Assembly: GCA_017964785.1 (NCBI GenBank)
Contig: JAGCRH010000018.1
Span: 1-36,698 of the forward strand
DNA length: 36,698 nt
Source of the DNA: Prevotella sp.
Lineage (GTDB): Bacteria > Bacteroidota > Bacteroidia > Bacteroidales > Bacteroidaceae
Direction of reading: 5' to 3'
Position numbers and translations under genes: made by a program. Below, one piece after another: positions 12,877 through 22,813 of the stretch; position 1 is the stretch's first letter; each line of letters starts with the position of its first letter. A model generated the notes under the pieces. It was not told the DNA's origin. It saw only the letters and a list, made by a program, of their open reading frames with translations, and searched no databases.

Positions 12877-12919
12877 TTACTCACTTACTCACTTACTCAC
12901 TATGTACATTTAGGTTTTT
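12876..12919. repeat. Right copy of 44-bp inverted repeat
   Basis: Exact reverse complement of 85-128, with TTACTCAC three times at 12877-12900. It begins on the last base of the primase stop codon and fills the gap before the P5-like gene at 12933. Confidence 0.9.
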
Positions 12920-18854: not shown

Positions 18855-19598
18855 ATGAAAAAACTTCTTTTAATGGCATTCCTGGCAGTTGGTATGACAG
18901 CCAATGCTGAGGAGAAAAACGAAAATGTGATGCTGAACGATGCCAACATGGTGACGTTTGCTGCCAATGATGACAATAATGGCGGTGGCGTGAAGTTGGG
19001 TCAGGGTGCAGACGAGGATGACAACTGGACGATGCACTTCGCTGTGGGTGTCGATATTCCCGTCAGCACCGGTGGCCTGGATTTCGCCCCGTTCCGTTCT
19101 TGGGATATCAACGTGACGCTTTTGCAGTATGACTGGACACCGAAGAAGTCAAAGACCACACTTTCTGCCGGTCTGGGATTCGAGTGGCGTAACTACACGC
19201 TGAGCGGACATGACAATATGTTTGTGAAGGCTAACGACCTGGTTGGTGTCGTTCATCGTGACGGTGAGATGTCAGAACTCTCTTCCCGCGTTCATACGGT
19301 GGGTCTTGCCATGCCTCTGCTCATCAAGCAGCGCTTTGGCAAGAACTTCGCCATCTCGGTGGGCGCCCAGTTGAACTGGAACTACTATGCCCGTCTGAAC
19401 AACTACTATGAGGTGGGTGATCACGAGATCGACGACCTGACGAAGAAGATTGGTCAGCGCCCCATCACCGTCGACATCCTCGGCATCGTACACGTGGCCA
19501 AGGGTCTCGGCATCTATTGCAAGTACTCGCCGATGAGCGTGTTTAAGAAGGACAAGGGTCCTGACTTCAAGTCACTCTCCGTTGGCTTCTACTTCTAA
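18855..19598 (+). CDS. Outer-membrane beta-barrel-like protein
   Basis: 247 aa from ATG 18855. The frame is open from 18768, but that start precedes the promoter, and only 18855 begins with a signal peptide (MKKLLLMAFLAVGMTANA). Amphipathic strands alternate through the mature part (WTMHFAVGVDIPV, WDINVTLLQYDW, TTLSAGLGFEWRNYTL, FAISVGAQLNWNYYARL). The chain ends 'KSLSVGFYF', the terminal aromatic signature of outer-membrane barrels. An Asp/Asn-Gly-rich stretch lies at 29-60. Substrate is unknown. Its last 27 bases overlap the end of xseB on the opposite strand. Confidence 0.8.
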   Translation: MKKLLLMAFLAVGMTANAEEKNENVMLNDANMVTFAANDDNNGGGVKLGQGADEDDNWTMHFAVGVDIPVSTGGLDFAPFRSWDINVTLLQYDWTPKKSKTTLSAGLGFEWRNYTLSGHDNMFVKANDLVGVVHRDGEMSELSSRVHTVGLAMPLLIKQRFGKNFAISVGAQLNWNYYARLNNYYEVGDHEIDDLTKKIGQRPITVDILGIVHVAKGLGIYCKYSPMSVFKKDKGPDFKSLSVGFYF

Positions 19599-19772
19599 TT
19601 GACGGATTTCCGCTTCTGTCTTGGACAGTTTGTCCTTGCAGAATTTGATTAATCGCTGTGCTTCTTTCAGTTGCACAGCGATTTCGTCTATGCTGTACTC
19701 GTCGTTTTCCATCTTGCGGACGATGGTTTGGAGTTGTGCGAAGGCGGCTTCGTATTTCTGTTCTTCTTTCAT
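19572..19772 (-). CDS. xseB: Exodeoxyribonuclease VII small subunit
   Basis: 66 aa, the usual XseB size. It has the family pattern 'KYEAAFAQLQTIVRKMENDEYSIDEIAVQLKEAQRLIKFCKDKL', a helical hairpin that binds the C-terminal helix of XseA. ExoVII degrades single-stranded DNA in both directions and acts in repair and tolerance to trapped topoisomerase. It follows xseA by 12 bases and overlaps the end of the convergent outer-membrane protein gene by 27 bases. Confidence 0.93.
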   Translation of the reverse strand: MKEEQKYEAAFAQLQTIVRKMENDEYSIDEIAVQLKEAQRLIKFCKDKLSKTEAEIRQLEVEANGE

Positions 19773-19786
19773 GGGGATGGGTATTT

Positions 19787-19822
19787 ATGGGTTGAATGGG
19801 TTTGATGGGTCGGATGGGAGGA
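19787..19822. repeat. 9-bp tandem repeat at the xseA 3' end
   Basis: Four units ATGGGTTGA, ATGGGTTTG, ATGGGTCGG and ATGGGAGGA code the XseA tail 'SDPSNPFNP'. The reverse complement matches the repeat family at 26313-26357. Confidence 0.8.
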
Positions 19823-20044
19823 CGGTGGAACGGACGGTGCCGTTGGCGAGGCGGGTCTCGATCTCGTCGCCGGGGCGGAGCGCAGAGGCATCGCGCAGGG
19901 CCTTGCCGTCTTTGAGGGTGATGCTGTAGCCGCGCCGAAGCAAAAGGGCGGGGTCGAGGCTCTTGGCCTTTTCCTCGATGAGTTGCAGGCGGTGCTTCTC
20001 GGTCATCAGGCGGCGGTCGAGGAGGATGGGGAGGCGATTCGCTA

Positions 20045-20072
20045 AATTGATAATGGATAATTGATAATTGAT
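20045..20072. repeat. 7-bp tandem repeat in xseA, four units
   Basis: ATTGATA, ATGGATA, ATTGATA and ATTGATA code 'INYQLSII' on the minus strand, in the coiled-coil region. Confidence 0.85.
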
Positions 20073-20178
20073 AATTTTCTGGTGCGCAGAGTGGGCGAGG
20101 CGACTGTTGAGGGCGTCGAGGCGGGCTTCGTGGCGGGTTCTGACGGCGGTGAAGATGCGGGGGAGGGTCTCGGAGAGC

Positions 20179-20206
20179 GTGATAAGTGATGAGTGATAAG
20201 TGATCA
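20179..20206. repeat. 7-bp tandem repeat in xseA, four units
   Basis: GTGATAA, GTGATGA, GTGATAA and GTGATCA code 'LITYHSSLIT' on the minus strand, in the coiled-coil region. Confidence 0.85.
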
Positions 20207-20483
20207 GTTTTTGCTGGGCAGCATGGGCGAGGCGGTCCTGGGCATCGTTGATGGCATCGAGGACGGTTTTCAGGTGGTCGATGAGGAAGGCGGCAGCGGC
20301 AGTGGGGGTCTTTACCCGGGTGTGACTCACCATGTCGAGGATGCTCTCGTCGCGGTCGTGGCCGATGCCGGTGATGATGGGGATGGGGAAGTTGGCGACA
20401 TTCTCAGCAAGGGCGAGGGTGTCGAAGCCGCTCATGTCGCTGGTCGCCCCGCCGCCCCGGATGATTACTACGCAGTCGAAATT

Positions 20484-20504
20484 AGAGGTGAGAGGTGAGA
20501 GGTG
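20484..20504. repeat. 7-bp tandem repeat at the xseA frame break, three units
   Basis: AGAGGTG is repeated exactly three times. Seven is not a multiple of three, so each gain or loss shifts the frame. The other three 7-bp arrays near xseA have four units. Confidence 0.9.
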
Positions 20505-20992
20505 AGAGAATAGAATTTTTCCAAGGCGGCGATGATGCTTTGTTCCACGCCTTCGCCCTGCATCGTGGCGGGGAAGAGGCGCGTCTCGAAACGGAAACCG
20601 TAGGGATTATCGGCCAGTTGGTTGCAGAAGTCGCCGTAGCCGGCGGCGGTCTCGGACGAGATGACGGCGATGCGCTGGCAGAAGAGCGGCAGATGGAGTT
20701 CTTTCTGCAAGTCGAAGACACCCTCGGCCTTCAACTGTCGGATGATTTCCTGGCGCTTGCGGGCCATGTCGCCGAGGGTGTAGGTGGGGTCGATGTCGGT
20801 GACGATCCACGAGAAACCGAAGGCCTCGTGGAATTGGGCGTAGACCTTCAGCAGTACCTTCATGCCGGCGTGGAGCCGCTGGCCGGTGATGCGCTCGAAC
20901 CCGGGGCGGATGAGCATCCACTTCGAGGCCCAGCACTTGGCCGAGGCTCGGGCGAGGGGGGTGGATGATCGACCCGACAGCCCCGACGATGA

Positions 20993-21082
20993 ACCGAAAG
21001 CCCCTGAGCCCCCGAAAGCCCCTGAGCCCCCGATGGTCCTTGAGGCTCCGACGGCCCCTGAGCCCCCGAAAGCCCCTGCATC
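20993..21082. repeat. 18-bp tandem repeat, five units, in the xseA OB-fold region
   Basis: Units of 18 bp (consensus CCCGAAAGCCCCTGAGCC) keep the frame and code a GGSGAF-type linker between 'YMELVQYEE' and 'ARASAKCWASKW', which are adjacent in normal XseA. Confidence 0.85.
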
Positions 21083-21263
21083 TGGCATCGCCGAGGGGCT
21101 TTCTTCGTACTGCACCAGTTCCATGTAGCAGTGCCCGTGGCTCTCGCGGCACTCCGACAACTCCGCCTCTACCCAATACTCATTGGGTATCTCGCACTCG
21201 ATGACCTCGCGCACGAGGCGGTTGAGTTCCAGGAGGGTTATATGCTGCTCGCTTTTCATTTCT

Positions 21264-21291
21264 CTCACCTCTTACCTCTCACCACTCACCT
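21264..21291. repeat. 7-bp tandem repeat between the protease gene and xseA
   Basis: CTCACCT, CTTACCT, CTCACCA and CTCACCT: four units lie immediately upstream of the xseA ATG and overlap the last bases of the protease gene, so they may alter the xseA ribosome-binding region. Confidence 0.85.
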
Positions 21292-22813
21292 CTACTTTCC
21301 CAATCATATACGCCCGCCAGAAGTTCGGGGTGCCGTAGCCGTGGATATTGTCCGGCTCATCGTGCTGGCTGGCGGTCTGTCGCACCAGGGCGATGATGTC
21401 GAGGGCGGTCTTCTCGGGCAGCGCCTGCCAGAGACAGGCCACGAGCCCCGCCACGATCGGTGTCGAGAACGACGTTCCCATATCCCTGACGATGGTGCCG
21501 CGCCCGGAGATGAGCACCGCCGGCGAGCCGAGGGCCATCACGTCGGGTTTTACTCTTCCGTCCTGCGTCGGGCCGACGCCGCTGAACGGCGCGTTCTCCT
21601 TCTGGCGGTTCAGGGCGCCCACGGTCAGGATGTTGTTCGCATCGCCGGGCACCTCGATTTTCTTCCACGGCCCCATGCCACTATTACCGGCGGAACTGAC
21701 GAGGATGATGCCTTTCTGTGCCAGCATCGAGGCGGCGCGCGAGATGAGCGCCGTGCGCCCGTCGAGGTCGCGCTGGCGGTAGTCGTTGTCGGTGCCGTCG
21801 TAGTTGCTGTAGCCGAGGCTGCTGCTGATGATGTCCACGCCTGCCGAGTCGGCGAATTCCGCCGCCATCGTCCAGTAGTCCTCCTCCACGGGCTGCTCCG
21901 AATGCTGGTCCTCGCTGCGCAACAGCCAGTAGCGGGCCTCGGGGGCGGTGCCTACGAGTATTTGCGGCTCGTTGGTGGCCATCGTCGAGAGCACCTTTGT
22001 GCCGTGGTCGGTCTCGCGGCAGAGGATCTCGGGGATTGGCTCTTCCGACCGGAGCGCGCGGAAGTCAGGTGTCTGTCCCCGCGGTCCGTATCCCCGTGCT
22101 TCGGGGCTCCACACGAAGTTCTTCCCCCCCACGATGTTCGCCCGTTGCAGGGCGGGTATCTCGTTGGCGTTCTGGAAGCCGCCGTCGATCACGGCGATGG
22201 TCATGCCTTTGCCCCGGCAGCCGATGTCGTGCAGGCGGTGCCCGCTGAGCATCTCTATCTGCTCGCGGCCGTTGCCGTAGAGGTCGCCGCGGATGCTGTC
22301 CCATTGGTTCCAGCCCTCGTGCACCTTGATCTTCGGGCCGCGCCGCTCGATCGAGTCGGGCGACTGCCACACCTGCCGGGCCTCGCTGACGAACGGGAGT
22401 TCCGCCAGGCAGCGCAGCAGCAGTGTGTCGGTGGAGCGCACGAGCACGGTGTTCTGCCAGCGTGAGGTGCCGACAAACTGCCAGTCGGGCTTCCCGCGGC
22501 GGCGAATCGGAGGATTCGCCTGGCGCTCCATCTCTTTCAGGTATTTGGCCGAGACGGGCAGGTCGGTGGAGTCGAGGCTGAGCCCCTGCCGGCGGCGACG
22601 CTCGATGCTCTTGTGCGAGAGCCAACGGCCGGGGTGTTCGAGCGAGTAGGCGGTGCCCTGCTTGTCGCGCAGGGTATAGCGCCAGATGTACTGCTTCGGG
22701 CCCGGATATTTCACCTTGCTCGCCGCCTGTGCCGCCGAGTCCTGTGCCGCCGTGCCACCCAGGAGCGCCACGGCGAGGCAAATCAGAAGCCTTATAGTTA
22801 CCAGTTTCTTCAT
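21272..22813 (-). CDS. Secreted subtilisin-like serine protease (family S8)
   Basis: 513 aa from ATG 22813. The frame is open to 23095, but that part crosses the promoter at 22822-22853 and the neighbouring gene. The signal peptide is about residues 1-29. An N-terminal domain with 'RWLSHKSIERRRRQGLSLDSTDLPVS'-type sequence (65-88) is typical of Bacteroidetes S8 proteases. The catalytic triad reads Asp210 (IAVIDGGF), His270 (TDHGTKVL) and Ser448 (GTSFSTPIVAGL), with oxyanion Asn377 (SSAGNSG). No type IX sorting domain follows; the chain ends soon after 'HGYGTPNFWRAY'. It is probably active in the periplasm or outside the cell. The last bases overlap the 7-bp array before xseA. Confidence 0.92.
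   Translation of the reverse strand: MKKLVTIRLLICLAVALLGGTAAQDSAAQAASKVKYPGPKQYIWRYTLRDKQGTAYSLEHPGRWLSHKSIERRRRQGLSLDSTDLPVSAKYLKEMERQANPPIRRRGKPDWQFVGTSRWQNTVLVRSTDTLLLRCLAELPFVSEARQVWQSPDSIERRGPKIKVHEGWNQWDSIRGDLYGNGREQIEMLSGHRLHDIGCRGKGMTIAVIDGGFQNANEIPALQRANIVGGKNFVWSPEARGYGPRGQTPDFRALRSEEPIPEILCRETDHGTKVLSTMATNEPQILVGTAPEARYWLLRSEDQHSEQPVEEDYWTMAAEFADSAGVDIISSSLGYSNYDGTDNDYRQRDLDGRTALISRAASMLAQKGIILVSSAGNSGMGPWKKIEVPGDANNILTVGALNRQKENAPFSGVGPTQDGRVKPDVMALGSPAVLISGRGTIVRDMGTSFSTPIVAGLVACLWQALPEKTALDIIALVRQTASQHDEPDNIHGYGTPNFWRAYMIGKVEVSGER

Follow-up and report, generated by a model that had tools for sequence, protein, structure and literature searches.

Is exonuclease VII of this Prevotella sp. 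switched on and off by a short tandem repeat, or does the break in the gene for its large subunit, xseA, have another origin? The locus lies in a stretch of 36,698 nucleotides (the window), which is the whole of contig C105 (JAGCRH010000018.1) in a 2.88-Mb draft genome of 147 contigs that is 81.4% complete. Here xseA is read on the minus strand in two frames, which meet in a perfect array of the heptamer AGAGGTG (CTCTCAC on the coding strand). The first-pass annotation took this array to have lost one of four normal units and suggested phase variation, with assembly error among its alternatives. Phase variation is not supported by the comparisons described below, and assembly error gives the best fit, given that hisS of the same genome is split alike. 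It seems probable that the break in xseA is an artefact of assembly rather than a genetic on/off switch, and that living cells have the usual 4.6 units and an open frame.

The array, AGAGGTGAGAGGTGAGAGGTGAGAG, lies at 20484..20508 (minus strand), just before the FDCVVIIRGGG motif of XseA, and comprises 3.6 units in 25 bp with 100% matches. This position, referred to here as site A, contains a tandem repeat within the reading frame, and the length of its unit (7 bp) is not a multiple of three. The 5' part of the gene (frame 1, 20468..21259, minus strand) has a likely ATG at 21257-21259 and encodes the OB-fold and the first 69 positions of Exonuc_VII_L; its open reading frame, 21268..20468, runs through the array and ends at a stop at 20468-20470. 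FDCVVIIRGGG is encoded in a different frame, that of the 3' part (frame 2, 19785..20510, minus strand), which is open from the array region to its own stop. The Pfam profile is cut at the array: frame 1 matches its positions 1-69 and frame 2 its positions 72-314. Neither part of the gene contains a further stop. The first-pass description of two frames meeting in three copies of a 7-bp unit is borne out by these features. The identity of the product is supported by PF13742, by PF02601 (in two pieces) and by PF02609 in the neighbouring gene, and the XseA of a relative matches the structure 8txr_A (E 1e-24). That neighbour is xseB, encoding the small subunit (19572..19772), which is intact and directly downstream; xseA, xseB and the upstream S8 peptidase gene are all on the minus strand. 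With up to two mismatches, the 14-mer AGAGGTGAGAGGTG has five matches in the window, compared with a mean of 0.20 in 100 shuffles. Two of these fall in the site A array and three in a second array at 21262-21293.

Two further genes of the draft genome, hisS and one of the queA family, are split as xseA is. All three carry a perfect 25-bp AGAGGTG array and stand one heptad from an open frame. The hisS array lies at C92:898-922, and the gene, named by TIGR00442, appears as two partial matches to that family, neither above the family cut-off. The array of the queA-family gene, which was named from a reading of its protein, lies at C107:2126-2150. No second hisS was found in the 81.4%-complete genome, where the other TIGR00442 matches, on C8, reach only 36-38 bits. 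HisS is essential. As the only hisS found, this gene cannot be off in the cells that were sequenced, and a deficit that xseA shares with an indispensable gene in the same assembly makes its own break more likely an artefact than a switch. An off state of xseA alone would be compatible with life; for the affected genes together this does not hold, for the same reason. In net length relative to the sister genome G237, which has none of the xseA arrays and is 97% identical in the N-terminal part of hisS, xseA differs by +20 bp, hisS by -1 bp and the queA-family gene by +35 bp. Each value is one heptad off a multiple of three, and in the same direction. The +20 bp of xseA is located at site A, and the frame arithmetic of the first-pass annotation holds.

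Relatives keep both of the other genes in frame. For hisS, 30 loci were given, one of them the genome's own and three without the upstream motif, and all 26 loci with both motifs keep the frame. One of these, in G307, has the same array type in the same place, in frame, with 60 nt compared with 53 nt here (+7). For the queA-family gene the frame is kept in 28 of 28 relatives with both motifs (30 loci given, including the genome's own and L279, which lacks the motif pair). No AGAGGTG array was found at this site in the 28 relatives, and the gene in G184 (L299) carries another 7-bp repeat, in frame. The hisS array is of the CTCTCAC type, at the same position and in the same orientation, in the genome under study (G000, L244) and in G307 (L260), and is absent from the sister G237. 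Judged from sequence, this distribution may reflect separate insertions into the same site or a transfer, or else G237 may have lost the array.

Relatives of xseA were collected by a C-terminal XseA search of named genomes. The best 80 of the 191 relatives are nearly all titled Prevotella or Prevotellaceae, are mostly metagenome-assembled, and in many cases have a ruminant gut site in their title. The frame across site A was compared at 111 xseA loci including the window's own, from which 19 duplicates, 5 loci without the upstream motif and 9 without the downstream motif were removed. There remained 78 distinct loci with both flanking motifs, and 77 of them cross site A in a single frame; the exception is the window's own genome. 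Arrays recur at three positions in the gene: at site A in 4 relatives, at site B in 9 and at site C in 5. In the window, site B is a GTGATAA array of 4.3 units (20179..20208) and site C an AATTGAT array of 4.6 units (20045..20076), both inside xseA on the minus strand and in frame. At all 13 inspected loci with site B or C arrays, the array lies inside a frame that is open from the VVIIRGG motif past the array. In one relative (L171), a diverged CTCTCAC array at site A is in frame and spans 57 nt, compared with 50 nt here (+7). The comparison of copy number in relatives called for by the first-pass annotation revealed an in-frame array one unit longer and no off state among 77 relatives. Between strains, copy number at site A was compared in other species only, and those with arrays keep one frame. 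A second genome of the same species was sought with an exact pattern that allowed a gap of any of several lengths at the array; this pattern had no match in genome contigs, although very near records may be left out. A genus-wide search gave an XseA match in 280 of 299 genomes, with no stop inside the XseA match among the matches listed.

The site A array belongs to a dispersed family. An 18-mer of the array matches the genome 32 times, overlaps included, and the reversed control not at all. Sampling of 67 stretches around pattern hits, together with the window, gave 102 period-7 arrays, of which 99 were kept for phase analysis. The unit RANRRKT is fitted at 90% or more by 83 of these 99, a share that partly follows from the construction of the sample and is not evidence, since stretches were picked with a RANRRKT-like pattern (at least 21 bp) or with the AGAGGTG 18-mer. 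Lengths are narrowly distributed, with 66 of the 83 RANRRKT-like arrays at 28-36 bp. The sampled part of the genome contains 34 arrays of the AGAGGTG type. None of them exceeds 34 bp, and 28 are 28-34 bp long; 21 share a start phase and 26 an end phase. Longer heptad arrays do exist, for example one of 46 bp in this genome and one of 59 bp in G281. Four units are therefore the normal count, as the first-pass annotation had supposed, in agreement with the longer in-frame array of L171, and the site A array is one unit shorter than the usual element of its type. The degenerate heptad pattern is present in 29 of 32 genomes tested, with 0 to 294 matches per genome, and its reversed pattern, which fits the same arrays, is not an independent control. 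With many sites, a degenerate unit and a narrow copy number near four, these are dispersed heptamer repeats with a four-unit preference, and the arrays of this genome are mostly short elements of narrow length, not hypervariable tracts.

Frame behaviour was classified for 96 arrays, with equal thresholds for in-frame and split outcomes. Twenty-six are in frame inside genes, 7 were labelled split and 4 mark gene boundaries with a stop. The other 59 have no assignment, like 36 of 47 in the two-contig genome G281, so that in both genomes the classification could overlook a weakly coding gene that is split. The seven labelled split are xseA, hisS, the queA-family gene and four cases (L097, L112, L134 and L135) that were rejected by eye as adjacent gene pairs. 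The queA-family case had been labelled OTHER under the first thresholds and was spotted by eye; under equal thresholds it is SPLIT. The array at window position 21262 and those at L102, L105 and L108 were likewise rejected as splits, being gene boundaries with a stop. Short perfect arrays are broken in 3 of 3 cases, compared with 0 of 26 others (Fisher p = 2.7e-4), and 26 of 29 arrays are in frame against an expectation of one-third (p = 4.5e-10). In G281, in-frame arrays number 5 of 47, and inspection by eye revealed no gene split by an array; L316, L345 and L346 were dismissed there as adjacent genes, and three further rows are gene boundaries by eye. Arrays inside genes thus mostly preserve the frame and do not, in general, serve as switches.

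A history consistent with these observations can be proposed. The xseA of this lineage may have acquired a dispersed AGAGGTG element at a length-tolerant place before FDCVVIIRGGG, like some relatives, and in living cells this element would most likely keep the frame with its usual number of units. The three-unit count, and with it the 'off' state, would then most likely come from short-read assembly. A perfect period-7 array would form a cycle in a de Bruijn graph of small k, and an exit one turn early would lose exactly one unit. Repeat collapse in de Bruijn assembly is documented, at least in the available part of one report (PMC6868369). In a de Bruijn graph simulation with k of 19, 21, 23 and 25, perfect arrays of 32, 39 and 46 bp were reduced to 25 bp on the shortest path, and a single interruption restricted collapse to only 12, 8, 4 and 0 of 32 positions, respectively. 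Perfect stretches of exactly 25 bp number 11 in 15 genomes, 3 of them here and 8 elsewhere. In six of the 8 from elsewhere, the unit next to the stretch agrees at 5-6 of 7 bases, and 5 of the 8 lie inside genes that are read through in a single frame; for the three stretches here, the neighbouring unit matches 2-4 of 7 bases on the left and 1-3 on the right. A slightly different fourth unit beside six of the eight stretches in relatives would protect these from collapse. Among 20 contig ends viewed, a non-random sample, C38 ends within a perfect array and C107 two bases past one, which would fit breaks at small k. We infer that the unit went missing when the reads were assembled and not in the cells, and that these reads were short. 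For xseA itself the case is strong by analogy with hisS, although this falls short of proof.

Several observations weigh against an artefact. A perfect 32-bp AGAGGTG array (L123) survives in this assembly, in frame, and 8 of the 21 classified perfect arrays here are 28-33 bp long. The share of perfect arrays shorter than 28 bp does not differ clearly between this genome (13 of 21) and the two-contig G281 (4 of 8); the argument for collapse therefore relies on the three split genes rather than on the arrays as a whole. An imperfect array of three units (L129) indicates that three-unit forms occur. In G307 one array (L355) is in frame even though its neighbouring unit matches just 4 of 7 bases, no better than the left side of the array in the queA-family gene. 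Perfect arrays would also slip more in vivo, and a second hisS could lie in the missing part of the 81%-complete genome.

Some of the observations favour real slipped-strand variation, in which cells have either three or four units, xseA switches accordingly, and the assembly took the three-unit allele. The array at site A is perfect, with a unit of frame-shifting length, the deficit relative to L171 is exactly one unit, an imperfect three-unit array exists elsewhere (L129), and the 3' part of the gene has stayed open throughout frame 2, which would make any loss recent. However, the three-unit form also lies in the only hisS detected, which cannot be off in most cells, and all 77 relatives with both motifs have one frame, including four with site A arrays and one with a diverged array. 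The complete lack of AGAGGTG-type arrays longer than 34 bp among the 34 in this genome also argues against a slipping tract, and XseA stands outside the surface and restriction classes that are usual for contingency loci. Slipped-strand switching of xseA therefore seems unlikely.

A fixed, recent deletion of one unit, by which xseA, like the queA-family gene, would only lately have become a pseudogene in the strain, draws on the same indications of a real deletion, namely the perfect array, the exact one-unit deficit, the open frame 2 and L129. Exonuclease VII is, in addition, non-essential in E. coli. Against this, three separate and similar deletions would be required, one of them in hisS, while xseB is intact alongside and neither part of xseA has acquired a further stop; we regard such a deletion as less likely again. 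Ribosomal frameshifting within the array, by which genuine three-unit genes would be translated, would need the same direction of shift in all three genes, as is the case, but is highly improbable, as the frames of entry into the array differ (LSPLTSHL in hisS, SLTSHLSPL in xseA and the queA-family gene) and inspection by eye, the only means applied, revealed no classical slippery heptamer.

The other arrays in and beside xseA have four units, as the first-pass annotation had stated (4.6, 4.3 and 4.6). Besides those at sites B and C, an imperfect AGAGGTG-type array of 4.6 units (21262..21293, minus strand) lies across the end of the S8 peptidase gene, immediately before the likely start codon of xseA, and adds 29 bp relative to G237. 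This array is directly followed by AAATG, which contains that likely start codon; AAATG also directly follows AGAGGTG-type arrays at L106, L109, L111 and L152. Units of this type contain AGGTGA, which we take to be Shine-Dalgarno-like. The site B and C arrays stand in for native sequence, with zero net change in length relative to the sister genome. A unit of 7 nt gives the protein a period of seven residues, which at sites B and C could suit helical coiled-coil regions. An 18-bp tandem array of 4.7 copies (CCGAAAGCCCCTGAGCCC, 20994-21078) encodes an in-frame stretch rich in Gly, Ser and Ala in the OB-fold part of XseA, and is lacking in G013, G018 and G020. Two 8-bp arrays of 3.1 copies, at 103-127 and 12877-12901 (AGTGAGTA, TTACTCAC), are opposite orientations of one unit. 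Several heptad arrays (L099, L102, L139 and L140 in this genome; L326, L334, L335 and L347 in G281) are flanked on the left by variants of AGGTACRAAAA and on the right by variants of AAATTTGCTG (TTTTGTACCT in L326). These flanks look like parts of a wider repeated, partly palindromic element.

Small dispersed elements that are tolerated in frame in conserved genes are known in Rickettsia, where they are palindromic and longer; the Prevotella elements, in contrast, are direct heptad arrays of ~32 bp. No description of heptamer repeats in Prevotella was found among the literature matches listed. The nearest described kind, judging from the available passages of that work, are the heptameric repeats GGGAATC and GGGGA(C/T)T, which occur in Xanthomonas and Nostoc; two genomes of Xanthomonas contain 186 and 183 such repeat patterns (PMC4692102). 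Both families consist of dispersed, degenerate 7-nt units with a four-unit preference, those of Xanthomonas and Nostoc often near start or stop codons. However, as presented in those passages, the latter form G-quadruplexes through runs of G and range from 2 to 26 copies (PMC4692102), whereas the Prevotella family differs in its unit and in its place, arrays also occurring in frame inside conserved genes. On inspection of the sequence alone, its commonest units (AGAGGTG, GATAAGT, GATAATT and GAAAAGT) lack GGG, though variants such as GAGGGGT and GAAGGGT exist. The TAACTGA heptamers of Beggiatoaceae, Cyanobacteria and some Bacteroidetes have a different unit and are mostly intergenic, and the passages at hand do not describe in-frame use in essential genes; contigs ending partway in repeats are noted there too (PMC4679880). 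A 7-nt tandem unit is also found upstream of hmw1A and hmw2A in Haemophilus influenzae, where copy number can alter expression (PMC2651432). According to the sections available, those tracts lie in promoters, with copy numbers such as 13, 16 and 38 in two strains (PMC2651432), whereas here a DNA-repair gene has 3-4 copies in its coding region, and variation within a species was not observed.

Frameshifts in draft genomes can be read as pseudogenes or as phase variation, and the present case illustrates a cheap check, which is to look in the same assembly for an essential gene that the repeat splits alike. Beyond the break itself, interest lies in a family of heptad elements that recurs in frame in conserved Prevotella genes. 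In a tentative picture, which we consider less likely than not, the heptad elements of ruminant Prevotella may have a near-fixed size of ~32 bp or 4.6 units (those of the AGAGGTG type mostly with the same start and end phase), may spread by copying, and may repeatedly have hit the same places in conserved and even essential genes such as xseA and hisS. In some cases they would replace native bases without a change in length, giving rise to seven-residue protein repeats, and some populations could flicker between three and four units. Should such elements indeed be copied in frame into genes, an abundant group of rumen bacteria would have in them a source of new protein segments that has been little described.
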